Origin: Saccharopolyspora hordei
Lineage (GTDB): Bacteria; Actinomycetota; Actinomycetes; Mycobacteriales; Pseudonocardiaceae
DNA length: 64,000 nucleotides
Direction: 5' to 3'
Assembly (NCBI RefSeq): GCF_013410345.1
Contig: NZ_JACCFJ010000001.1
Span: 3,385,001-3,449,000, forward strand
Positions 54,286 to 64,000 of this stretch are shown here, piece by piece. Positions within the stretch are counted from its first letter, which is position 1. The number at the start of each line of letters is the position of its first letter. The position numbers were made by a program, and so were the translations under genes. The notes under the pieces were generated by a model, which saw only the letters and a list, made by a program, of their open reading frames with translations, was not told the origin of the DNA and did no database searches.

Positions 54286-54621
54286 CGATCCACTCCTCGG
54301 GTAGGACGATCATGCGCACCTGAGCCTGGCACGGCTCCCGATCACCGCGCAGCCGAGCACACCCGGAAGCAGGGGGACTCCCACCGTCCGGGACGACGAG
54401 CCAGCACAGTTCAACTGCCTCGATCGCTTCAGATTGGAGTGAAATCAATCCCGACCGGAGGTGCCGCAGAAGTCGGTGTGTCACCCGAAGACCGGCTCCG
54501 GAGCCGCCGTTCGGCGGACCGCCACCCGGCTGCGCGCAGGCGGCTCCCCGGCGGTTGCCGGACGTCGTGAAGATCGGCAAGCTGATCACTCCGAGGCCAC
54601 GACGCGACCCCGGGGGTGGGC
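54286..54621. promoter_or_regulatory. Divergent promoter region of the PIG-L and Crp-like genes
   Basis: 336 bases with no gene. The AT-richest part (54408-54452) contains TTCA-N8-TGAA and is the likely promoter zone for both divergent genes. The remainder is featureless GC-rich sequence. Confidence 0.35.
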
Positions 54622-55323
54622 ATGGGCGGCACCCACGCCCGCGCCGACGACCGTCGGCATCCGTTCCACGGCACGTTCTGGGCGATGCTGCAGCCACCGG
54701 AGCGGGACCTGGTGCGGGGAGCGGGTGCGGTCCGGCGGTTCGCGCCCGGCGAATCCCTCTGCAGGCAAGGCGATTCCTCCCAGCACGTCTACGTCCTGCT
54801 CGCGGGCAGCCTCGAGATCGTCACGGACGTCCGCACCGGTTACGAGAGCGTGCTCGCCGTTCGCGGACCCGGTGACATCGTCGGAGAACTCGCCGCGGTG
54901 GACGGCAGACCGCGGTCGGCGACGATGCGGGCGCTCGAACACGTGGAGGCCCTCGTCGTCCCCGCCGAGCGGTTCGCCGCGCTGTGCCAGTCGAGGCCGG
55001 GGCCCGCGTGGGCGCTGCTGCTCGTCGTCACCGGCCGGTTGCGGGAGCTCAGCCAGCAGCACGCGGACCACGGCGGCCGCCCCGTCCTGCAGCGGCTGGT
55101 CGCGCTGCTGCTCGACCTCGCCGGTCGCTACGGCGTGGCCGCGGGGAGCGCTGTCACCATCGCGATACCGATCACGCAGAAGAGCATGGCCGGACTCATC
55201 TCGGCCTCCCGGGAATCGGTGGTGCGGGTGCTGGCCGACCTGCGCCGGCGGCGCCTGGTCACGACGGCTCGCCGGCGGTTGACGATCCTCCGCCCGGACG
55301 CCCTCGAACAGCTCCTGTCGTGA
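54622..55323 (+). CDS. Crp/Fnr-family regulator
   Basis: 233 residues from ATG 54622 (GTG 54616 is in frame). The cyclic-nucleotide-binding beta-roll spans about 15-130: VRRFAPGESLCRQGDSSQHVYVLLAGSLEIV and GPGDIVGELAAVDGRPRSATMRALE. In the latter, GE and PRSAT resemble the cAMP phosphate-binding cassette. The C-terminal winged HTH spans about 165-230 (ITQKSMAGLISASRESVVRVLADLRRRRLV). There is no N-terminal Cys cluster, so it is Crp-like rather than Fnr. It lies 670 bases upstream of a gene with a nucleotide-cyclase domain, but no link is proven. Confidence 0.87.
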   Translation: MGGTHARADDRRHPFHGTFWAMLQPPERDLVRGAGAVRRFAPGESLCRQGDSSQHVYVLLAGSLEIVTDVRTGYESVLAVRGPGDIVGELAAVDGRPRSATMRALEHVEALVVPAERFAALCQSRPGPAWALLLVVTGRLRELSQQHADHGGRPVLQRLVALLLDLAGRYGVAAGSAVTIAIPITQKSMAGLISASRESVVRVLADLRRRRLVTTARRRLTILRPDALEQLLS

Positions 55324-55451
55324 ACTCGCCGCGGTGCGGCGGATCCCCAACTCCGTGCAATTGCAGCTGAATGAGTCACCTGACGCACTGCGCGGCGGAG
55401 AACTGCCGTACACGTGAGGTCATCGCCCTCGTGCGGAGGAGGTTGACGACC

Positions 55452-55721
55452 ATGACGAAGACTCGTTCACCGCAGCGGAACCTGGCCGGCGTCCCGCGGA
55501 CCACGACGGTGCCGACCGCAGTCGCGCCGGAACGCCCGAGCCGGTGGTGGGACCGGCCGTCGCTGGTGCTCAGCGTCGTGTTCAGCGTCGTCCAGGTGTG
55601 GGCGCTGGTCGTCGTGCTGGTGTCGGTGCAGCCCGAAGGCGCGGTCCGCGTGGCCCTGGCCTGCGTGATGGCCGCCGCCGTCCTGGCGGTCATGTCGGCG
55701 TGGGGGAGGGCGCGCACCTAG
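55452..55721 (+). CDS. Small two-helix membrane protein
   Basis: 89 residues from ATG 55452, with GGAGGAGG nine bases upstream. The first 35 residues are polar and basic (MTKTRSPQRNLAG...). Two hydrophobic helices follow (LVLSVVFSVVQVWALVVVLVSV and VALACVMAAAVLAVMSAWG) joined by a short loop QPEGAVR. No family is recognised. A strong 17-bp terminator follows, so it is not part of the downstream operon. Confidence 0.6.
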   Translation: MTKTRSPQRNLAGVPRTTTVPTAVAPERPSRWWDRPSLVLSVVFSVVQVWALVVVLVSVQPEGAVRVALACVMAAAVLAVMSAWGRART

Positions 55722-55990: not shown

Positions 55991-57754
55991 ATGCCGCTGT
56001 ACTCAGAAGCGCTCTACCGGAGCATCGTGCTGGTGGACGTCGCTCGTTTCACCGACCCGCGGCGGTCGTTCCAAGACCAGGTCGCCGTGCACCGGAGCCT
56101 CGCGGAGTTGCTGGAGCGAGCGTTCGACGACGCCGGCGTGGAGTGGTGCTCCTGCTACGTGGAAGACCGTGGTGACGGGAAGATGATCCTGGTACCGCCC
56201 GAGGTGCCCCAGTCCCGGTTGGTGGACAACCTGGGCAGCCGCCTGCTCGCGGAACTCCGCAGGCACAACGCGGTGCACTCCGACGCGGCGGCGATGCAGC
56301 TGCGGGTCGCGCTGCACGCCGGGAACGTCGCGCGGAGCTCCAACGGCACGGTCAGCCCGGCGATCAACTTCGCGTCCCGGCTCCTCGACGCGCCCGACGC
56401 GAAGGCCCGGTTGGCGCGAACGGGGAGCACACTGGCGCTGATCGCCTCGGAGGAGTTCTACCGCGACGTCATCAAGCACGACCACGCCGCCGAACCCGAC
56501 GAGTTCCGGCAGATCCCGGTGGAGGTCAAGGAGACCAGCGCGGTCGCGTGGTTGCGGCTCTTCGGGGCCACGACCGCCGAAGCCGTGCCCGCGCCGTCTC
56601 GCGAGGTGCTCGACCTGCTGCCGTCCGGTGACCTGGAGGAGCTGCGGGACCCGCTGGAGCACCTCCACGTCCCACAACTGCCGACGCTGGTGCACCGCGC
56701 GGCCGGGCCGGGTGTTCTGCCCCAGCCTCCGGACGCGAACCCGTGGCAGGTGCTCAAGTACCTGGCGGACGTCAACGCCGGTGCGGACGGGTTCCCGCCG
56801 GCGCTGGCGTTCGTCGAGCTCCTGGCTCGGCAGGTCGCCGACAGTGCGGTGCGCACCAAGCTCGCGGAGTGGAGCGACCGGCAGGCGCGGCGGCTGCAGC
56901 TGGAAGCCCGGCTGGAGGAGTTCCGGGCGACGCACGCCCGGCCCGTTCCCGCCGACGCGCGGCTGCACCTGATGATCGTGATCCAGCACGACGGCCTCGA
57001 CCCGGAGCTCTTCACGGTCTCGCACTGGCGGCAGGACGACCCCGCGGAGTGGCCACCAGCGCGCGGGCACGACCGCAGTGCCCGCATCGACGAGATCGAG
57101 CGGCACGTCGACGAGCTGGTGGTCGAAGCCGAGCGGGCCTGGTGCGGGCACACGGGCTCGGTGGCGCTGGAGGTCGTGCTGCCGAGGGCGCTGCTGAACC
57201 TGCCGGTCCACCTGTGGCACAAGGAGCACGACACCGGGATGCCGCGCCCGCTGTGCCTGGACTACCCGATCACCGTGCGGTCGCTGGAGCGGATGAGGTC
57301 CCCGCACTGGCACCGGATGTGGAACCGGAGGTGGCGGACGCTGTGGGAAGATCCGCGGAGCGCGGTGGTGCACTACGCCCGCCCCGCTCGCCCGGACAAC
57401 CCGCACGCCCTCGACGCCGCGCTGGAGCGCGACCAGCGGTGCGCGGCGATCCTGCTCACCGCCGCGCCGTCGCGGGAACCGCGGCGTGGCGACCAGTTGA
57501 TCTCCGCGTTGCGCGCGGGGCTGCCGGCGGTGTTCTGGCACCGCACCGACGCGGAGCCGGAGCGCGTGCGGGAAGTCGTGGAGTGGTTGGCCGAGGAGGG
57601 CGGCTTGACGGAACTGCCGGACCGGACGCACGCCGTCCGGCGGGACGCGCACCTCGACGCGCCGACCCGGTTCGACAGCAAGGTGGTACAAGAACTGGTG
57701 GTCCTGTGGGATGATCCGGACCGTTTGGTCGATCCCGAGGAGCTCGCTGGCTAG
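55991..57754 (+). CDS. VMAP-like protein with class III nucleotide-cyclase domain
   Basis: 587 residues; ATG 55991 follows GGGAGGGGG. Residues 8-205 resemble a class III adenylate/guanylate cyclase catalytic domain. VLVDVARFTD supplies the first metal Asp (16), DRGDGKMIL the second (62), and the late AINFASRLLDA keeps the Asn and Arg of the transition-state pair. Residues about 235-325 are a helical middle region. Residues 326-587 (LMIVIQHDGLDPELF, LPRALLNLPVHLWH, RCAAILLTAAPSREP) match my recollection of the VMAP C-terminal domain of vWA-MoxR-associated proteins. It leads an operon with MoxR and vWA/NB-ARC genes, the classical ternary set. Cyclase activity is inferred from residues only. Confidence 0.7.
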   Translation: MPLYSEALYRSIVLVDVARFTDPRRSFQDQVAVHRSLAELLERAFDDAGVEWCSCYVEDRGDGKMILVPPEVPQSRLVDNLGSRLLAELRRHNAVHSDAAAMQLRVALHAGNVARSSNGTVSPAINFASRLLDAPDAKARLARTGSTLALIASEEFYRDVIKHDHAAEPDEFRQIPVEVKETSAVAWLRLFGATTAEAVPAPSREVLDLLPSGDLEELRDPLEHLHVPQLPTLVHRAAGPGVLPQPPDANPWQVLKYLADVNAGADGFPPALAFVELLARQVADSAVRTKLAEWSDRQARRLQLEARLEEFRATHARPVPADARLHLMIVIQHDGLDPELFTVSHWRQDDPAEWPPARGHDRSARIDEIERHVDELVVEAERAWCGHTGSVALEVVLPRALLNLPVHLWHKEHDTGMPRPLCLDYPITVRSLERMRSPHWHRMWNRRWRTLWEDPRSAVVHYARPARPDNPHALDAALERDQRCAAILLTAAPSREPRRGDQLISALRAGLPAVFWHRTDAEPERVREVVEWLAEEGGLTELPDRTHAVRRDAHLDAPTRFDSKVVQELVVLWDDPDRLVDPEELAG

Positions 57755-57775
57755 GCCGGGAGGGACACCGCGGAG

Positions 57776-58891
57776 ATGAGCATCGACGAGCAACCCGACA
57801 ACGACTCGTCGCGTGAGCGGTCGGCGGGCTTCGGAACGCCCGACTGGTGGATCTACCGGGGAACCGGCCGTCCGTTGCCGGACGTCCGGTTGACCGATCT
57901 CCTCCCCGCTCCACCGCCGTGGCGGGACTTCCGCGGCGGCCCGCTGCCCGAGCGCGACGCCCCGCCGCCCGACGACGGCGAGGCGCGGCGTCGGCTGGGT
58001 GCGGAATCGCACCTCTCCGAACGGGACGTCGACCCGCACGAGGTCGACATGGTGAACGCCGCGCTGTACCTGCGCCGTCCGCTGCTGGTGACCGGTCGGC
58101 CCGGCACCGGCAAGTCCAGCCTGGCCTTCCGGATCGCCCGCGAGCTCAACCTCGGTCGCGTGCTCCGGTGGCCGATCACCAGTCGCACCACGCTGAAGTC
58201 GGGCTTGTACGCCTACGACGCCATCGGTCGCGCGCAGGCCGCCGCGACCCGGCAAGCGCTGGCGCGGTGGGGCCCGGACCCCGATCGCCCGCTGCCGGAC
58301 GCGGAACCGCCGGTGGGTGACTTCGTGCGCCTGGGGCCGCTGGGCACGGCGTTCCTGCCGACCGAGCTGCCGCGCGTGCTGCTCATCGACGAGCTCGACA
58401 AGAGCGACGTGGACCTGCCGAACGACCTGCTCAGCATCTTCGAGGACGGCCAGTTCACCATCCCGGAGCTGGAGCGGGTGCGGGACCGGTCGCCTGAGGT
58501 GTCGGTGCTGACCGACGATCCCGGTGCCACGGCCACCGTGGTCGACGGCCGCGTGAGCTGCCGGGCGTTCCCGGTCGTGGTGATCACCAGCAACGGGGAG
58601 CGGGAGTTCCCGGAGGCGTTCCTGCGCCGCTGTCTCCGGCTGACGATCAAGGAACCGGACGCCGAGCAGCTCGCCGCGATGGTCGCCGCTCATCTGTCCG
58701 GCACCGACGACGAGCAGCGACGGCGGATGATCCAGGAGTTCCTCGACCGCGGGGCCGAGGGTGGCGGCCTGCCGGCCGACAAGCTCTTGGACGCGTTGTA
58801 CTTGGCGACGTCGGGCACCTACCGCGGCGACGACGAGTCGTGGGCGCGGTTGCGCGACGCGCTGTGGCGGCAACTCACCCCGGCCACGTGA
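57776..58891 (+). CDS. MoxR-type AAA+ ATPase of the ternary system
   Basis: 371 residues from ATG 57776, 21 bases after the VMAP gene. Residues 1-75 are polar and include PDWWIYRGTG, a segment typical of MoxR proteins in these systems. The AAA+ core has Walker A VTGRPGTGKSSLA (about 105), the WPITSRTTLKSGLYAYDAIGR insert, Walker B VLLIDELDKSDVDLPNDLL, sensor 1 VVVITSNGEREFPEAF, and an arginine-finger region FLRRCLRLTI. It is the NTP-hydrolysing arm that would remodel or license the vWA and VMAP partners. The next gene begins one base after its stop. Confidence 0.88.
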   Translation: MSIDEQPDNDSSRERSAGFGTPDWWIYRGTGRPLPDVRLTDLLPAPPPWRDFRGGPLPERDAPPPDDGEARRRLGAESHLSERDVDPHEVDMVNAALYLRRPLLVTGRPGTGKSSLAFRIARELNLGRVLRWPITSRTTLKSGLYAYDAIGRAQAAATRQALARWGPDPDRPLPDAEPPVGDFVRLGPLGTAFLPTELPRVLLIDELDKSDVDLPNDLLSIFEDGQFTIPELERVRDRSPEVSVLTDDPGATATVVDGRVSCRAFPVVVITSNGEREFPEAFLRRCLRLTIKEPDAEQLAAMVAAHLSGTDDEQRRRMIQEFLDRGAEGGGLPADKLLDALYLATSGTYRGDDESWARLRDALWRQLTPAT

Positions 58892-58892
58892 C

Positions 58893-61800
58893 GTGCGGGG
58901 CGGGGATGGCGGTGGAGCGGTCGGGCCGGTCGGCCCGGCCGCTCCGAACGGTTCCGCACCGGCGTTGGGGACGAGCGACCTCAGCTGGATGGAGGTCGCC
59001 GACGCGCTCTGGCTGACGGCTGCCACCCAGTTCGCCTGGGGCAGGTACCGCACCGGTGACGTGGAGCAGCGGCCCGACGAGCAGGACCCGGAACCGGCGC
59101 TGGCAGCCGTGGGATCCCCGCACGAGCCGGACCGCCCGGAGCCGCCGCTCGAACCGCCGCCGAGCGCGAGCGAGGACGACACCGACGCCTCGGCGCGGAC
59201 CGTCGCTGAGCCGGACGCGGACGTGCCGGCGTCCGACGGACGCAGCGCGCGACCGTGCCCGGCTGAGGTGGTCAGCGTGCCGGCGGAGCCCCGCCGGCCG
59301 GCGCCGGGACCGAACGTCGTCCGGGCGCTCCGCCCGTTCAAGCAGGAAGTCCGTTCCCCGCACGACGAAGACGCACTCCTCGACGAGGACCTGACCGCGG
59401 AGCGCGCGGCTGAAGACGGGTTGTGGTTGCCGATGACCCGACCGGGCACGACGCGGTGGCTCGACCTGACACTGGTCGTGGACACCCATCCGTCGATGGC
59501 GCTGTGGCGCTCGACGATCACCGAGTTCACCCGGGCGCTGGAACGGCTCGGCGCCTTCCGATCGATTCAGCGGCGATCGCTGGACACCACCGGCGACACG
59601 CCGGTGCTGCGCGGCGGTTCCGCACGGACCCCGGTGCGCGACCCGGCAGAGCTGATCGACCCGTCGGGACGGCGGGTCGTCCTCGTCCTCACCGACGGGG
59701 TCGGTGCCTGCTGGCGACGTGGTTCGGTCGAGCCACTGCTGGCGCGGTGGGGCGCCTCGATGTCCGTGGCGGTGGCGCACCTGCTGCCGCAGCGGCTCTG
59801 GCGGCGCGGCGGGATGCGACCGCACCGCGCCAAGGTGACCACGCCGCGGCCGGTGGCCCCGAACCGGCAGTGGTGGGTGGAACTGCCCGACGCGTGGCTG
59901 GAACCTGACCCGTCGCCACCGCCCGGCTCGGTGGCGGTCCCGGTCCTGGAGCTGGAGACGCGGTGGCTCTCCCGGTGGGCGCAGCTGGTCACCGGCCATC
60001 GCGGGCGGTCCGCGGACGCCGTGGTGCTGCTGGCGAGTGGCGAGCGGGCGGAGACTCCGGCACCGACCGAGGGCAGGGCGGGGTCGCCGCGGCAGCGGGT
60101 GATGCGCTTCCTCAGCACGGCGTCGCCGCCCGCCTTCCGGCTCGCCACGCTGCTCGCCGCGGTCCCGGTGAGCGTTCCCGTCGCGCGGGCGATCCAGCAC
60201 GAGCTGGTGCCGGGATCAGGACCCGACGACCTCGCCGAGGTGCTCACCAGCGACCTGCTGCGCCCGGTCGACGGGTCGGCGGCGGGAGGCTGGGAGGACG
60301 CCACGTTCGCCTTCGACCAGCCGGTCCGAGAGCTGTTGCTCAGCGGCGCGCGGCGCTCGGAGACCGCGCGGGCACTCCACATCGTCGCCGAGGAGTTCGG
60401 TGACCGCGTCACCGGCGTGCGGCACCTCACCGAGGTGCTGTCCGATCCCGACCACGCCCCGGAGTCGGGGGTGGAAGCCGATCCCGCGATCGAGCGCACC
60501 GTGCTGCGCGCCCTCTCCGGGCCGTACCTGGCCCGCGCGCGCCGATCGGTGCCGGGCGGCGACACCGGGCCACCTACACCTTCGGTGGAAGGACGCTTCA
60601 GCCCTCCGAGTCCGCAGGCCGATGGAACCGTGGGTACACATGAGACAACGGCGAGTGGGGACATGTCAGTTCAGAGCACTGGATCACCGAACGGCACGGG
60701 TTCAGCGGACGCACCGCAGTCGTCGCCTCGCCCCGCCGACACCGTGCGGGCGGTCCCGACTCCGTCCGCTGAGGACACAACCGCCCCCGCGGACCCGTTC
60801 ACCCCACCGTCCACAGTGACCGCCCGCATCCTCCGCGAGCGGCAGATGGACGACGTGCCACCGATCTGGGGTGACGTGCCACCGCGCAACCCGATCTTCA
60901 CCGGTCGCGAGGAGCCGCTGGCTGAGCTGGAGGCGCGGCTGAAGGACGCCGGCACCACCGCCATCCTGCCCTCGACGCTGCACGGCATGAGCGGCATCGG
61001 CAAGACCCAGATCGCCGTCGAGTACATCTACCGGCACCTCGCGGACTACGACCTGGTGTGGTGGGTCCAAGCAGGACAGCGGTCGCAGATCCGCGCCGGC
61101 CTGACCGAACTGGCGCAGGCGCTGCAGCTGCCGGGCAGCTCCGAAGCCCACACGGCCGTGCCCGCGGTGCGCGAAGCGCTGCGCTGCGGGCACCCGATCC
61201 GCCGGTGGCTGCTGGTGTTCGACGCCGCGGAGAGCCCGGAGGACGTGCGCCCGTTCTTCCCCGCCAACGGGCCGGGCGAGATCATCATCACCTCGCGGAA
61301 CCCGGACTGGGCCGAGGTGGCCCGCCCGTTGGAGGTCAACCTCTTCGAGCGGTCCGAGAGCAAGGCGTTGCTGCGCAGCCGCGGCCCGGAGATCACCGAG
61401 GAGGAGGCCGACGCGCTGGCCGAGAAGCTCGGTGACCTGCCGCTGGCGATCGCCCAGGCGGCCGCCTGGCGGGCGGAGACCGGGATGACGGTCAGCGAGT
61501 ACCTCCGGGTGTTCGACGAGAAGGTCGCCGAGATCCTCGACGTGTCGGCGCCCAACGACTACGAGGTCTCGCTGGCCGCGGCCTGGAACGTCTCGCTGGA
61601 CCAGCTGGAGTCCCGGAACCCCGCCGCCTACCAGCTGCTGCAGGTGTGCGCGTTCTTCGACCCGGAACCAATCCCGCGCAGCCTGTTCTCCGGCGGGCGG
61701 GGTACCGCGGTCGCGCCCGAGCTGGACGCCGCCCTGCGCGACCCGATCCGGCTCGGGCGCGCCATCCGCGACATCAACCGGTTCGGGCTGGCCAAGATCG

Positions 61801-63338
61801 ACCACCGCAGCGACACGCTGCAGCTGCACCGGCTGGTCCAGCTCGTCCTCCGCGACCGGATGTCACCGCAGCGCCAGACCGAGATGCGTCACGGTGCGCA
61901 CCTGCTGCTGGCCAACTCGAACCCGGGCAGCCCCAGCGATCCCGTCCAGTGGCCCCGCTTCAAGGCGATCCTGCCGCACGCCTACGCGTCGAACGTGCTG
62001 GAGTGCGACGACCCGTGGGTGCGCCAGATGGTCGTCGACCTGATGGTGTACCTGTTCTTCTGGGGTGACCACCAGGAGAGCGTCGCGCTGGGCGAGAGGG
62101 CGATGAAGGCGTGGTCGGCGAAGCTGGAGGAGACCGACCCGCAGCTGCTCCAGGTCGCCGGACTGCTCGGCCCGTACCTGTGCACCTTGGGCCGCTACGC
62201 GGAGGCAGCGGAGCTCAACCAGCGGACCCTGGCGCTGCGTCGGCAGGTCTCGGGGGACAACAGCGAGGAGACGTTGAGCGCGCAGCTCAGCGTCGCCTAC
62301 GACCTCAAGGCCAAGGGCGACTACCTGCGCGCCCGGGAGCTGAACGAGGAGGTCTACCACAAGGCCAAGACGCTCTACGGCGAGGACGACCCGGTCACGC
62401 TGAGCGCTGCGCACGACCTGGCCGTCACGCTGCGGTTGCTCGGGGAGTACCGGCGGGCGCGGGACCTGGGGGAGGTGACCCACCACCGGCAGGGCGTGGT
62501 CCGCGGGTTCGACAGCCCGAACGCGGTGAACTCGCTCGGCGGGTACATCCTGGACCGCCTGGAGCTGGGCGACTACGCCTGGGCGCACGCCGAGCTGGAG
62601 CGGTTGCTGGAGCGGTGCCAGAAGCTGTTCGGCAAGGACAAGGCGATCACCCTGTACCGCCAACACCGGTTGGCCATCGCCACCCGGAAGAACGGCGACC
62701 ACCAGGGCGCGTTGAAGCTCTCGAGGCAGGCGCTGGAGCTGTACCGGTACCGCTACGGCGTCGACCACCCGAGCACCCTCGGCTGTGCCATCTCGCACTC
62801 CATCGATCTGCGGCAGACCGGTGACCTCAAGGCGGCGCGCGAGCTCGGCGAGGACACCTTCAACCGGTACCGGCGCAGCCTCGGGGAGAACCACCCGCAC
62901 ACGCTGGCGGCCGCGATCGACCTGGCGGTCACCTTGCGGCTGCTCGGGGAGGTGGGCAGCGCGCGGCAGCTCGACGAGCGTGCCGTCGAGCAGCTCCGCG
63001 CGCAGTTCGGCCCGGACCAGGCACACGCGGTGATCGCGACGATCAACCTGGCCAGTGACGTGGCCGCGCTGGGCGACATCGAGACAGCCCTGCAGCTGGG
63101 CAGGGAGGCGGCGCAGCGGGCGGAGCGGGTCTTCGGTGCCGACCACCCCACCACGATCGCGGCCGACCACAACGTCGTCCTGGACTTGCGTGCTGCGGGC
63201 GAGGGGGAGCAGGCCGAGGCCGAGCGCAGCGAGGTCCTCGCCCGCTTCCGCCGGGCGCTGGGCGAGAGCCACCCGGCGGTGGTGGCCGCGACCCGGGGCG
63301 TGCGGGCCAACTGCGACATCGACCCCGCGCCGCTGTGA
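58893..63338 (+). CDS. FxsT-like vWA / NB-ARC / TPR protein
   Basis: 1481 residues from GTG 58893. The N-terminus has WMEVADALWLTAATQF, the short helical element of SAV_2336-type proteins, then a Pro/Glu-rich linker. A vWA-like domain follows (about 190-380; LTLVVDTHPSMALW has DTHPS where MIDAS usually reads DxSxS, so the metal site is altered). The associated helical region reaches about 560. NB-ARC lies at about 665-990 (FTGREEPLAELEARL, P-loop GMSGIGKT, LLVFDAAE, GDLPLAIAQAAAW). Tetratricopeptide repeats fill about 1070-1470 with the repeat FGxDHPxT. The length and order match FxSxx-COOH system TPR protein FxsT. It is the sensor and scaffold of the operon. Confidence 0.82.
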   Translation: MRGGDGGGAVGPVGPAAPNGSAPALGTSDLSWMEVADALWLTAATQFAWGRYRTGDVEQRPDEQDPEPALAAVGSPHEPDRPEPPLEPPPSASEDDTDASARTVAEPDADVPASDGRSARPCPAEVVSVPAEPRRPAPGPNVVRALRPFKQEVRSPHDEDALLDEDLTAERAAEDGLWLPMTRPGTTRWLDLTLVVDTHPSMALWRSTITEFTRALERLGAFRSIQRRSLDTTGDTPVLRGGSARTPVRDPAELIDPSGRRVVLVLTDGVGACWRRGSVEPLLARWGASMSVAVAHLLPQRLWRRGGMRPHRAKVTTPRPVAPNRQWWVELPDAWLEPDPSPPPGSVAVPVLELETRWLSRWAQLVTGHRGRSADAVVLLASGERAETPAPTEGRAGSPRQRVMRFLSTASPPAFRLATLLAAVPVSVPVARAIQHELVPGSGPDDLAEVLTSDLLRPVDGSAAGGWEDATFAFDQPVRELLLSGARRSETARALHIVAEEFGDRVTGVRHLTEVLSDPDHAPESGVEADPAIERTVLRALSGPYLARARRSVPGGDTGPPTPSVEGRFSPPSPQADGTVGTHETTASGDMSVQSTGSPNGTGSADAPQSSPRPADTVRAVPTPSAEDTTAPADPFTPPSTVTARILRERQMDDVPPIWGDVPPRNPIFTGREEPLAELEARLKDAGTTAILPSTLHGMSGIGKTQIAVEYIYRHLADYDLVWWVQAGQRSQIRAGLTELAQALQLPGSSEAHTAVPAVREALRCGHPIRRWLLVFDAAESPEDVRPFFPANGPGEIIITSRNPDWAEVARPLEVNLFERSESKALLRSRGPEITEEEADALAEKLGDLPLAIAQAAAWRAETGMTVSEYLRVFDEKVAEILDVSAPNDYEVSLAAAWNVSLDQLESRNPAAYQLLQVCAFFDPEPIPRSLFSGGRGTAVAPELDAALRDPIRLGRAIRDINRFGLAKIDHRSDTLQLHRLVQLVLRDRMSPQRQTEMRHGAHLLLANSNPGSPSDPVQWPRFKAILPHAYASNVLECDDPWVRQMVVDLMVYLFFWGDHQESVALGERAMKAWSAKLEETDPQLLQVAGLLGPYLCTLGRYAEAAELNQRTLALRRQVSGDNSEETLSAQLSVAYDLKAKGDYLRARELNEEVYHKAKTLYGEDDPVTLSAAHDLAVTLRLLGEYRRARDLGEVTHHRQGVVRGFDSPNAVNSLGGYILDRLELGDYAWAHAELERLLERCQKLFGKDKAITLYRQHRLAIATRKNGDHQGALKLSRQALELYRYRYGVDHPSTLGCAISHSIDLRQTGDLKAARELGEDTFNRYRRSLGENHPHTLAAAIDLAVTLRLLGEVGSARQLDERAVEQLRAQFGPDQAHAVIATINLASDVAALGDIETALQLGREAAQRAERVFGADHPTTIAADHNVVLDLRAAGEGEQAEAERSEVLARFRRALGESHPAVVAATRGVRANCDIDPAPL

Positions 63339-63357
63339 TCCCGGTGGCGGGCGTGGA

Positions 63358-64000
63358 TCAGGTCAGGAAGCGCCCGATCCAGTCGGCCAGCTCGTCCGGG
63401 GCGACCTCGCTGGTCGCCTCGGACCGGACCCGCCGGTGCACTGCCCGGACCAGTTCCGGGCAGCTCAGCAGTGCCCGCGCGGCCGCGTGCGCACCGAGCC
63501 CGGACAGGGCCAGGCCGAGCCCGATCCAGGAGGCCGGGCGGTCGGGGTCGGCGGCCAGTTCGGCGCGGTAACCGTCTGCGGCCTCGTCGAGCCGACCAGT
63601 GGCGTAGGCCAGGTCCGCCGGAGTGGCGTCGGGCACGTTCTGCCACGTCTCCTGCACGATTCCCGGCGCGTCCTCGAAGAACCTGAGCCGCACGAGGTCG
63701 AGCCGCGCCTGCGACCAGGGACCGTCGGAGACCGGGGTGGGTGCCCGGTCGTCGGTCACGCGGACACCGGTCAGGCGCCGGTGACCGGCCAGCCACGCGT
63801 CCGACACGGCCCGCACGGTTTCCGGGTCCGGGCGGACGTGCCGGATCCGCCAGCCGGCGTGGTGGTCGGTGACGAGCGCCCGGGCCTGCTCGGCGAGGTC
63901 GGCGGACACCGGTTCGTCCTGCCAGGGGCCGAGTTCGGCGGCGACGCCGTCGACGAACCGGCGCCCGGCATCGGTGAGCGCCGAGTCCTGCCGCAGGGCC
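63358..64000 (-). CDS. C-terminal part of a HExxH-domain peptide-modification protein (FxsB-like), cut by window end
   Basis: At least 213 residues in an open minus frame running off the right edge; the stop is at 63358. Visible text includes LTDAGRRFVDGVAAELGPWQ, DHHAGWRIRHVRPDPETVRAVSDAWLAGH, LRFFEDAPGIVQETWQNVPDATPADLAYATGR, a TPR-like YRAELAADPDRPASWIGLGLAL, and the end DELADWIGRFLT. This pattern is what I recall at the end of HExxH putative peptide-modification proteins, including the C-terminal half of FxsB radical SAM enzymes. The HExxH itself would lie beyond 64000. It is convergent to the FxsT-like gene with 19 bases between the stops. Confidence 0.55.
   Translation of the reverse strand, partial: ALRQDSALTDAGRRFVDGVAAELGPWQDEPVSADLAEQARALVTDHHAGWRIRHVRPDPETVRAVSDAWLAGHRRLTGVRVTDDRAPTPVSDGPWSQARLDLVRLRFFEDAPGIVQETWQNVPDATPADLAYATGRLDEAADGYRAELAADPDRPASWIGLGLALSGLGAHAAARALLSCPELVRAVHRRVRSEATSEVAPDELADWIGRFLT

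Follow-up and report, generated by a model that had tools for sequence, protein, structure and literature searches.

In 2020, VMAP-ternary systems were predicted to serve multicellular bacteria as immune devices (Kaur et al., 2020; PMC7159879), and a limited literature search retrieved no experimental test of any of them. According to the accessible portions of that work, a fused AP-ATPase/TPR unit accompanies RxD or acidic peptides, a radical SAM/SPASM gene accompanies FxSxx among the VMAP types, cNMP cyclases are the most common nucleotide-signal domains on VMAPs, and the MoxR proteins of these systems carry two N-terminal motifs, WxhapG and PsWRxa. Besides, enzymes called aKG-HExxH have been characterised in two pathways, described in the available text of their reports as oxidising the Ala before RMD in PosA/PflA (PMC12636437) and hydroxylating the Pro before R(V/T)DN in PesA (PMC13060819).

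Here we describe a locus from a Saccharopolyspora-type actinomycete, lying in and beside an analysed stretch of 64,000 nucleotides (the window), which we consider somewhat probably to be an RxD-type, peptide-coupled VMAP-ternary conflict system working by the mechanism proposed below. The locus resembles the RxD type outlined by Kaur et al. (PMC7159879) in its 5' to 3' order of VMAP, MoxR and putative vWA genes, its VMAP-M0 and VMAP-C domains, the N-terminal motifs of MoxR, the AP-ATPase/TPR fused to the presumed vWA region, the HExxH gene and the small precursor ending in RxD, as well as in the occasional CRP-like gene and the cyclase on the VMAP. It shares with FxSxx-COOH systems (TIGR04268, TIGR04269, NF040586) an FxsA-like leader, a HExxH domain and an FxSxx_TPR-like NB-ARC/TPR, but it lacks their radical SAM/SPASM enzyme and FxSxx tail, and its NB-ARC/TPR is fused to the presumed vWA region. 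PflC/PosC and PesO (PMC12636437, PMC13060819) are similar by description, being called aKG-HExxH enzymes while that of the window matches TIGR04267, and their precursors carry R-x-D either at the very C-terminus or directly beside it. They differ in that MNIO enzymes and transporters belong to their clusters, and in the leader of PflA, which is of the nitrile-hydratase type (PMC12636437), that of the window being FxsA-like; no VMAP link was seen in the accessible portions of the two reports, the word VMAP being absent from that of PMC12636437.

Organization of the locus and its relatives

The first-pass annotation had described three co-directional, nearly abutting genes for a VMAP-like protein, a MoxR ATPase and a vWA/NB-ARC/TPR protein, facing the tail of a convergent gene for a HExxH peptide-modification protein, and this arrangement was recovered (Table 1) except that the vWA name found no Pfam match at E<=1. 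The first protein comprises a class III cyclase-like domain (residues 1-205), VMAP-M0 (residues 210-312; Pfam E=3.9e-26) and VMAP-C (residues 340-576; PF20028, E=2.1e-41, 142.8 bits against a cut-off of 27). The second has the Walker A sequence GRPGTGKS and the Walker B sequence LLIDELDK, and we call it MoxR on the basis of its AAA_5 match and N-terminal motifs, since its match to Pfam bpMoxR (E=0.022) falls below the cut-off of that model. Both motifs of Kaur et al. are present, as WWIYRG and PPWRDF, and they are well kept among relatives (W in 34/34 and G in 33/34 for the first; P in 35/35, W in 33/35 and R in 35/35 for the second).

Table 1. Features of the locus, in window coordinates (L009 coordinate = window coordinate - 53000)
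Feature	Position	Strand	Basis or remark
CRP/FNR-type regulator	54616..55323	+	NCBIfam CRP model E=8e-18, below equivalog cut-off
Small 116-aa protein between CRP and VMAP	55371..55721	+	Hydrophobic C-terminal half (by eye)
VMAP, 587 aa	55991..57754	+	Pfam VMAP-M0, VMAP-C; cyclase profile
MoxR-like AAA+ ATPase, 371 aa	57776..58891	+	Pfam AAA_5 E=3.2e-7, N-terminal motifs
SAV_2336 N-terminal domain, NB-ARC, DUF7779 and TPR in one ORF	about 58893..63338	+	Pfam, NCBIfam
aKG-HExxH peptide hydroxylase homologue, C-terminal part	63358..64000	-	Gene start 65193, beyond window edge
65-aa precursor gene	65257-65454, outside window	-	FxsA-like leader, C-terminus GGERVD-COOH

The third gene is placed at its listed start because an in-frame GTG at 58893 follows the MoxR stop codon (58889-58891). 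Its product unites in a single ORF the SAV_2336 N-terminal domain (429 bits, cut-off 200), which we read as the vWA region, with NB-ARC (the AP-ATPase), DUF7779 and TPR, all matched by Pfam, and it is recognised by NF040586, "FxSxx_TPR", with 887 bits against a cut-off of 300. The published association of a fused AP-ATPase/TPR with RxD peptides is thus seen here, with the fusion partner being the vWA protein. Between the regulator and the VMAP gene lies a 116-aa protein that is probably a membrane protein; it found no Pfam family over cut-off and is also present in the three orthologous loci of the Saccharopolyspora group (L055-L057).

Conservation was followed in a sample of 42 chosen loci, of which 40 came from the 114 genomes in which a match was found, the other two being the window and L054. 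The operon ending in TPR is convergent with the HExxH gene in 40/42 (the exceptions being L061 and L094), VMAP-C was seen in 40/42, the vWA region in 41/42 and a MoxR match in 36/42, one of the six loci without it being cut by a contig end. Within the SAV_2336/vWA region, the D of a DTHPS stretch is present in 41/41 loci and its last S in 29/41.

The HExxH enzyme homologue and the adjacent peptide

The window holds the C-terminal third of the HExxH protein, which flanking sequence completes to 611 aa. The protein matches TIGR04267 with 170.8 bits (cut-off 40), has a HEFQH motif and no radical SAM domain match, and is weakly TPR-like at its C-terminus, where TPR matches stay below the Pfam cut-off. 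Solved structures related to it by profile include 22nu (E=1.1e-63) and ChlH (8s5f, E=1.9e-9). The H, E and H of the motif, as well as four positions (W, R, D and R) of PWRxDxR, are invariant in 42/42 loci. The gene encodes a standalone aKG-HExxH peptide hydroxylase homologue, which is predicted to oxidise the peptide.

The precursor gene lies upstream of the hydroxylase gene, its stop codon ending 63 bases before the hydroxylase start codon. A leader of this kind was found upstream of 59/75 HExxH homologues and was not found for the remaining 16/75, and an RxD-COOH tail ends 22/59 of these precursors versus 2/512 other ORFs of the same upstream regions (Fisher p=8e-22). The precursors are under purifying selection, with dN/dS below 1 in all ten pairs of related sequences, three of which include the window precursor. 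The tail of the latter places it in the RxD type of Kaur et al. Other tails occur in 5/22 close loci and in most distant ones, and those of the forms GGH[DNE]S and QVQ[DN]E fall outside the four types named in the accessible text of Kaur et al. (PMC7159879), although some may be in their source data.

The leader aligns with FxsA at an hhalign probability of 96.5% (E=7.6e-10 for that single comparison). By itself the window peptide gave no NCBIfam match at E<=10, and an RxD-tailed relative (that of G161) reached 25.7 bits with TIGR04268 against a cut-off of 28. Three peptides beside such HExxH enzymes exceed that cut-off, covering model positions 1-33, 1-33 and 1-42 of 44, and the two whose tail is visible are not RxD.

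Cyclase-like domain and CRP-type regulator

At E<=1 the N-terminus of the window VMAP finds no separate Pfam family, and Pfam Guanylate_cyc reaches E<=1 in just two of 37 homologues, the window protein not among them; a profile built from these 37 retrieves class III cyclases of known structure with E=1.8e-6, in line with the class III relationship proposed by the first-pass annotation. The window domain keeps D16, D62, N126 and R130, which we take to be the metal aspartates, the transition-state asparagine and the arginine of class III cyclases. Both aspartates and the arginine are invariant in 37/37 homologues, N126 is present in 21/37, and E58, presumably a determinant of GMP-like specificity, in 27/37. 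The predicted cyclase activity is uncertain, because the asparagine is lost in 16/37 homologues and the segment preceding it is short relative to known cyclases. A cyclase domain occurs in 36/42 loci, fused to VMAP in 18 and separate in 18, ten of the separate domains lying upstream of the peptide-HExxH pair on the same strand; it was not found in 6/42, one of which is cut by the end of the stretch analysed for it. Its description as an unusual module therefore has to be abandoned, these counts agreeing with the commonness of cNMP cyclases reported by Kaur et al. (2020).

The regulator adjoining the operon, one of only two PF00027 matches over cut-off in the genome, contains the phosphate-binding cassette GELAAVDGRPRSAT, which we take to be the canonical one for cNMP. 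Linked CRP genes were seen in 15/42 loci, plus one partial match, and in none of the other 26; the 15 homologues keep the cassette Glu in 15/15 and the Arg in 14/15. A search for a CRP box found no convincing one.

Alternative explanations

At the sequence level, then, the locus combines three core proteins, a standalone aKG-HExxH homologue, a peptide whose leader is FxsA-like and whose R-x-D-COOH tail is conserved, a cyclase-like domain that keeps both metal aspartates and the arginine, and, linked to these, a CRP-type regulator in which the cNMP cassette is intact. A canonical FxSxx-COOH system with its radical SAM enzyme and FxsA elsewhere in the genome, suggested by the FxSxx_TPR match and the FxsA-like leader, is scarcely credible: FxsB is absent above cut-off from the complete genome (best 31 bits against 370, with 5/5 first-look candidates scored), FxsA (TIGR04268) from the 150 of 498 first-look candidates scored, and, by coordinates, FxsB over cut-off is missing from 39/40 genome stretches, L094 alone having one, beside its HExxH gene. 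A distant FxsB is thus refuted for the host genome at the curated cut-off. The window together with the 23 kb on its right, 87 kb in all, contains two ORFs ending in F-x-S-x-x, neither of them beside the enzyme and one lacking a start codon, and no radical SAM gene or FxSxx peptide of such a system was found to the right, an outcome that the first-pass annotation had itself named as contrary to its FxSxx assignment. The locus is not an FxSxx system, given that no FxsB in the genome reached the cut-off, that no FxSxx peptide was found among the candidates scored or beside the enzyme, and that the peptide next to the enzyme is of the RxD type.

The HExxH protein was read by Kaur et al. (PMC7159879) as a metallopeptidase, in which case a zinc enzyme would clip the precursor and release a short C-terminal peptide, and the related PflC does hydrolyse leaderless substrates with Zn, Co or Fe (PMC12636437). 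Nevertheless, the family model TIGR04267 takes its name from aKG-dependent hydroxylation, the relatives of solved structure include ChlH, and PflC without oxygen hydrolysed nothing in the full-length precursor (PMC12636437), so that our evidence favours an aKG-dependent peptide oxidase and the peptidase appears rather unlikely. It is still more doubtful that the peptide stays unmodified, its R-x-D-COOH end serving the TPR repeats as a ligand or docking tail while the HExxH protein acts elsewhere or only binds. In other proteins, acidic tails at the C-terminus are bound by TPR grooves; here R-x-D is a conserved C-terminal tail, and R304/R346 and N382/N424 are invariant in the TPR region at 42-residue spacing (each 42/42). 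Against this stand the pairing of precursor and HExxH gene and the invariant catalytic residues of the enzyme. MoxR-vWA pairs are often chaperones, and one for metallocofactor insertion, of the NorQ/NorD or RavA/ViaA sort and unrelated to conflict, could be imagined; it is very improbable in view of VMAP-C, the VMAP-specific MoxR motifs, NB-ARC/TPR and the peptide gene, which are not expected in such chaperones, and of a patchy distribution within the genus (4/22 genomes have a HExxH orthologue with 70% identity or more).

Proposed mechanism and significance

We know of no biochemistry for this clade. Since oxidation falls on the residue immediately preceding R-x-D in the two characterised pathways cited above, oxidation in the peptide-coupled VMAP-ternary system is predicted at or beside Glu-62: the oxidised position would be either Glu-62 of GGE62-R-V-D65 or its neighbour Gly-61, and in the latter case alpha-oxidation would cleave the chain, leaving an amide at the C-terminus. 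PosC tolerated the single loss of R, M or D (PMC12636437), so recognition by the enzyme does not have to involve R-x-D. The NB-ARC/TPR part of the vWA protein may sense the peptide itself or the state of its modification, with MoxR and vWA acting as an AAA+ remodelling switch and VMAP transmitting the state by making a cyclic nucleotide, for which E58 suggests GMP-like specificity. The CRP protein would read this nucleotide and set expression of the operon, the peptide or both, and invasion might be answered by an immune or self-limiting response.

More speculatively, and in our view doubtfully, the locus could be a bacterial NLR that is gated by a peptide, matures its ligand with an enzyme of its own and includes a second-messenger loop. 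The ligand of NB-ARC/TPR/vWA would then be the peptide end as oxidised just before R-x-D, or the amide left by oxidative cleavage, while the state of MoxR/VMAP would set the cNMP level that CRP reads to adjust expression of the peptide or the operon. If so, X-R-h-D would be a substrate code common to aKG-HExxH enzymes of unrelated pathways.

The kind of system has been known since 2020, and what is new is the peptide chemistry and cyclic-nucleotide wiring proposed here. According to a 2026 preprint, the transformations of MNIO and aKG-HExxH enzymes "at present cannot be predicted" (PMC13060819, accessible portion); if the X-R-h-D rule holds, the sites of the latter would become more predictable. 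Moreover, one small locus supplies a name for each of the parts, namely the peptide, the enzyme, the likely modification site, the candidate receptor and a reader of the cyclic nucleotide, so that the effect of the peptide on an NLR-like protein could be reduced to simple assays.

Gene content and class of the locus

VMAP-ternary systems were described by Kaur et al. (2020; PMC7159879), according to whom a peptide-processing unit is found in approximately 20% of the actinobacterial systems, with precursors of four types (FxSxx, RxD, acidic and FtsH-associated). In the same description, the FxSxx type comes with a radical SAM/SPASM gene and the FtsH type with a radical SAM gene of a different kind, and the RxD and acidic types have an AP-ATPase with TPRs fused to a vWA domain (PMC7159879). 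The window (G000:C1:3385001-3449000) is part of a single-contig genome of 5.78 Mb and, judged from the sequence by gene content and order, its locus is placed firmly in a known kind of system. It fits the RxD type of Kaur et al. on each point that could be tested, apart from the vWA domain of protein 3, for which Pfam gave no match at E<=1.

Features of the VMAP-ternary locus of Saccharopolyspora hordei, numbered as in the window and continued beyond its right edge
Feature	Position	Strand	Content
PIG-L-like protein, 888 aa	51619-54285	-	AHPDDE motif (by eye); just left of the system
Protein 1	55991-57754	+	VMAP-M0 and VMAP-C (Pfam)
Protein 2	57776-58891	+	AAA_5-type ATPase (Pfam); both Walker motifs; two N-terminal VMAP-MoxR motifs
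Protein 3	~58893-63338	+	SAV_2336 N-terminal domain, NB-ARC and TPRs in one protein
HExxH enzyme, 611 aa	65193-63358 (partial ORF at window edge)	-	TIGR04267 match
Precursor, 65 codons	65454-65257	-	Directly upstream of the enzyme gene; ends -GGERVD

Conservation was counted over 42 loci, namely the window, L054 and L055-L094. The last 40 were our choice from the 114 genomes that matched in a search of 297, with 20 taken from the best full-length matches and 20 from weaker ones; L052 and L053 duplicate L055 and L057 and were not counted. The two N-terminal motifs of protein 2, which Kaur et al. reported to be unique to the MoxR proteins of VMAP systems (PMC7159879), read WWIYRG and PPWRDF in the window, and among the loci aligning there the first keeps its W in 34/34 and its G in 33/34, and the second its P in 35/35, W in 33/35 and R in 35/35. 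The NB-ARC P-loop (GMSGIGK) has invariant G at residues 1, 4 and 6 and invariant K in all 42 loci. VMAP-C and TIGR04267, the model of the HExxH enzyme, each have a single match in the genome of the window. A real and well-conserved system is present at this locus. In PADLOC, the VMAP, the vWA protein and the in-window piece of the HExxH enzyme had no match at E<=1, and the MoxR protein gave weak AAA matches only.

The HExxH enzyme and its precursor

The enzyme scored 170.8 bits against TIGR04267 (aKG-HExxH peptide beta-hydroxylase; cut-off 40) and 128 bits, below the cut-off of 225, against NF040587, an FxsBH form whose extension is inactivated; none of the radical SAM families matched the enzyme over its cut-off. 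A profile of three orthologues reached 22nu (E=1.1e-63, residues 3-434), a 440-residue chain deposited as 'radical SAM core domain-containing protein' in which we see the HExxH half of a protein of FxsBH type, the aligned part including its HEFQH segment; the same profile also reached ChlH from Chlorogloeopsis (8s5f, E=1.9e-9). Besides, all 42 loci keep without exception the named residues of HExxH (His, Glu, His) and four positions of PWRxDxR (W, R, D and R). Kaur et al. regarded the HExxH protein as a metallopeptidase (PMC7159879). All fold assignments in this work come from sequence profiles.

Hand-written patterns missed many precursors, and a leader profile, built from 14 seed leaders and iterated on the ORFs of the loci from which the seeds came, was used in their place; detection of the leader is therefore not independent, and because the seeds stop short of the C-terminal ends, the count of RxD tails is largely independent of the search. 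Precursors were detected in this way for 59 of 75 HExxH genes and none for the other 16, over the window, L054-L094 and L123-L151 (the 29 best-match loci besides that of the window, from a search in which 47/394 genomes matched at E<=1e-60), HExxH matches shorter than 700 bases being left out. The ends of the precursors are clade-specific. R-x-D-COOH tails close 22/59 precursors, 17 of them from the group of 22 genes that encode enzymes with 55% or more identity to that of the window and the remaining five from another family of the class. Among other ORFs of the same upstream stretches, such an end occurs in 2/512 (Fisher p=8e-22, a value that overstates the case, since the loci are related by descent). 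Purifying selection was apparent in 10/10 precursor pairs from three groups (dN/dS ~0.14-0.56), with two of the 11 extracted precursors (L058 and L060) left unpaired.

Other endings mark other branches. In a distant branch, 7/59 precursors end in GGH[D/N/E]S (L076, L078, L079, L081, L085, L087 and L088, with L089 close), a tail that differs from the four types named in the accessible part of Kaur et al. (PMC7159879), and in this branch the cyclase has a gene of its own, upstream of those for the peptide and the enzyme. In L080, L082 and L091, from genomes of one genus, two units of VMAP, MoxR, vWA/NB-ARC/TPR and HExxH genes stand in tandem, and several of the precursors have ends close to QVQ[D/N]E. 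A tandem pair of HExxH genes, each with a precursor of its own (ends AKRVD and MDRVS), lies alongside a single ternary operon in L068:10490-14550.

Relation to FxSxx-COOH systems

The first-pass annotation had taken the locus for an FxSxx-COOH system, a reading that we reject. No FxsB exceeds the cut-off anywhere in the genome (top score 31 bits against 370, all five candidates scored), no FxsA passed among the 150 of 498 first-look candidates scored, a scan of 87 kb for ORFs ending F-x-S-x-x gave two, neither of them beside the enzyme, and the adjoining peptide ends in R-x-D instead. In related genomes, FxsB exceeded its cut-off in 14/40, and only in G112 (L094) does it lie beside the fetched HExxH gene, the others being on other contigs or at least ~60 kb away by coordinates. 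A rough pattern scan of the long ORFs of the 42 loci for the radical SAM cysteine motif recovered L094 alone, a looser match in L074 having failed a second filter. An FxSxx-like tail (...FQSSI) does occur in the precursor of L151, a distant homologue, where we read an upstream ORF, by eye from a GGEP stretch, as a putative radical SAM protein.

Kinship with FxsA is visible in the leader (hhalign 96.5%, E=7.6e-10, in one comparison of 22 RxD precursors with nine FxsA sequences). With TIGR04268, the FxsA model, at least three peptides beside such enzymes passed the cut-off, covering positions 1-33, 1-33 and 1-42 of its 44; the search took in the 40 related genomes, where in most cases part of the first-look candidates was scored, e.g., 134/418; two of these three end in DSWHH and WQSC, and an RxD-tailed peptide of G161, at 25.7 bits, stayed below the cut-off of 28. 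The peptide of the window was absent at E<=1 from the search of its own genome (150/498 candidates scored), and hmmscan with this peptide by itself found nothing in NCBIfam at E<=10. The C-terminal part of protein 3 matches NF040586, 'FxSxx-COOH system tetratricopeptide repeat protein', at 887 bits; this FxSxx_TPR name is misleading here, since the protein belongs to an RxD system, and automatic annotation will thus mislead readers about the type of peptide.

The cyclase-like domain and the CRP-type regulator

The cyclase-like N-terminal domain of the VMAP had no Pfam match when searched alone, and among PDB entries a 37-sequence profile reached class III cyclases, with atrial natriuretic peptide receptor 1 as the best match (E=1.8e-6) and 3mr7 also found (E=4.7e-5). 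D16 and D62, the metal aspartates, are invariant together with R130 (37/37), N126 is present in the window and kept in 21/37, and E58, kept in 27/37, aligns with a guanylyl cyclase Glu that has a role in base choice. The domain was found in 36/42 loci, fused to the VMAP in 18 and as a separate gene in 18, ten of which precede the precursor and enzyme genes on the same strand as these. It was not found in L080, L082, L091 and L094; of the other two loci in which it is missing, L061 is truncated by the fetched stretch and L073 has a VMAP that is broken up. Having been described at first as an unusual module, the domain proves common on this count, and cNMP cyclases are the commonest nucleotide-signal domains on VMAPs according to Kaur et al. 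(PMC7159879). Two loci carry a standalone cyclase-like gene near the system: in L066:1106-6162 it occurs besides the fused copy and next to an extra NB-ARC/TPR gene without vWA, and in L071:5264-5947 the VMAP gene is off the contig.

CRP-like genes have been linked to some peptide-processing units (PMC7159879). In our set, a CRP-type gene with a cNMP cassette, keeping its Glu in 15/15 and its Arg in 14/15, is found in 15/42 loci, with one further partial match. In four Saccharopolyspora-group loci it stands upstream of the VMAP and shares its strand, in seven loci it precedes the precursor and shares the strand of that gene, and it is divergent from the cyclase gene in three and from the HExxH gene in one. 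Since only two PF00027 genes exceed the cut-off in the whole genome of the window, this position is unlikely to be due to chance. The four Saccharopolyspora-group loci shared no palindrome upstream of the peptide, CRP and VMAP genes, nor did 18 loci compared ahead of their peptide genes. In the regions searched, promoter-like blocks are conserved (CTTCACA followed by a stretch resembling CATCAT/TATCAT), and the window has a dyad, TGAACACGCGCTCA, that decays in relatives; both the blocks and the dyad were excluded from the evidence.

Distribution and genomic setting

Close orthologues of the enzyme occur in 4/22 genomes of the genus, a patchy presence that agrees with a conflict role without proving it. 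In Saccharopolyspora oryzae the system has the same setting, the two species sharing flanking genes to its left and to its right. The PIG-L-like neighbour, with homologues in 11 of the 22 genomes of the genus (E<=1e-100), is next to the system there too. On the right side, adjacent genes resembling the beta and alpha subunits of a pyruvate/2-oxoacid dehydrogenase E1 (by eye) are shared with S. oryzae (L009:17577-19637, minus strand; L009 coordinates are window coordinates minus 53000). Five loci with the PIG-L-like gene and no close orthologue of the system (L152-L156) yielded no clean empty site: within 18 kb, the PIG-L-like gene alone exceeds 55% identity, and two of the five have one more such gene.

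Predicted modification and working model

Oxidation next to an R-x-D-like end is known from other aKG-HExxH pathways. In PosA/PflA, Gln residues are hydroxylated and the Ala directly before the C-terminal R-M-D is oxidised and the chain cut, leaving an amide; Gly at this position is also partly cut, Gln and Val are hydroxylated without cutting (for Val, at an inferred beta carbon), and Ser is oxidised to an aldehyde, uncut (PMC12636437). In PesA, the Pro directly before R-(V/T)-D-N is hydroxylated (PMC13060819). The residue before the Arg is Glu in the window peptide and in 13/16 other close R-x-D precursors (Lys in two, Gly in one), and by analogy beta-hydroxylation of Glu-62 or alpha-oxidation at Gly-61 is predicted. 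Against this prediction, single Ala substitutions of the R, M and D of PosA are tolerated (PMC12636437), so the resemblance of the R-x-D ends may be coincidence.

The most likely working order is one in which the precursor would be made, its leader bound by the HExxH enzyme and its tail oxidised; the peptide would be sensed by the NB-ARC/TPR part and MoxR-vWA-VMAP would be switched; and a cyclic nucleotide would then be made and read by the CRP-type regulator. The parts themselves are observed, and from them we infer each of the steps. Among open-licence papers, we found none that links RiPP enzymes of the HExxH kind to VMAP, MoxR or vWA systems, Kaur et al. alone was relevant for 'FxSxx', and nothing relevant was found for FxsA/FxsB. 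To a known kind of system this locus adds a new and testable connection of the RxD tail with aKG-HExxH chemistry, and gene linkage points to a cNMP loop.
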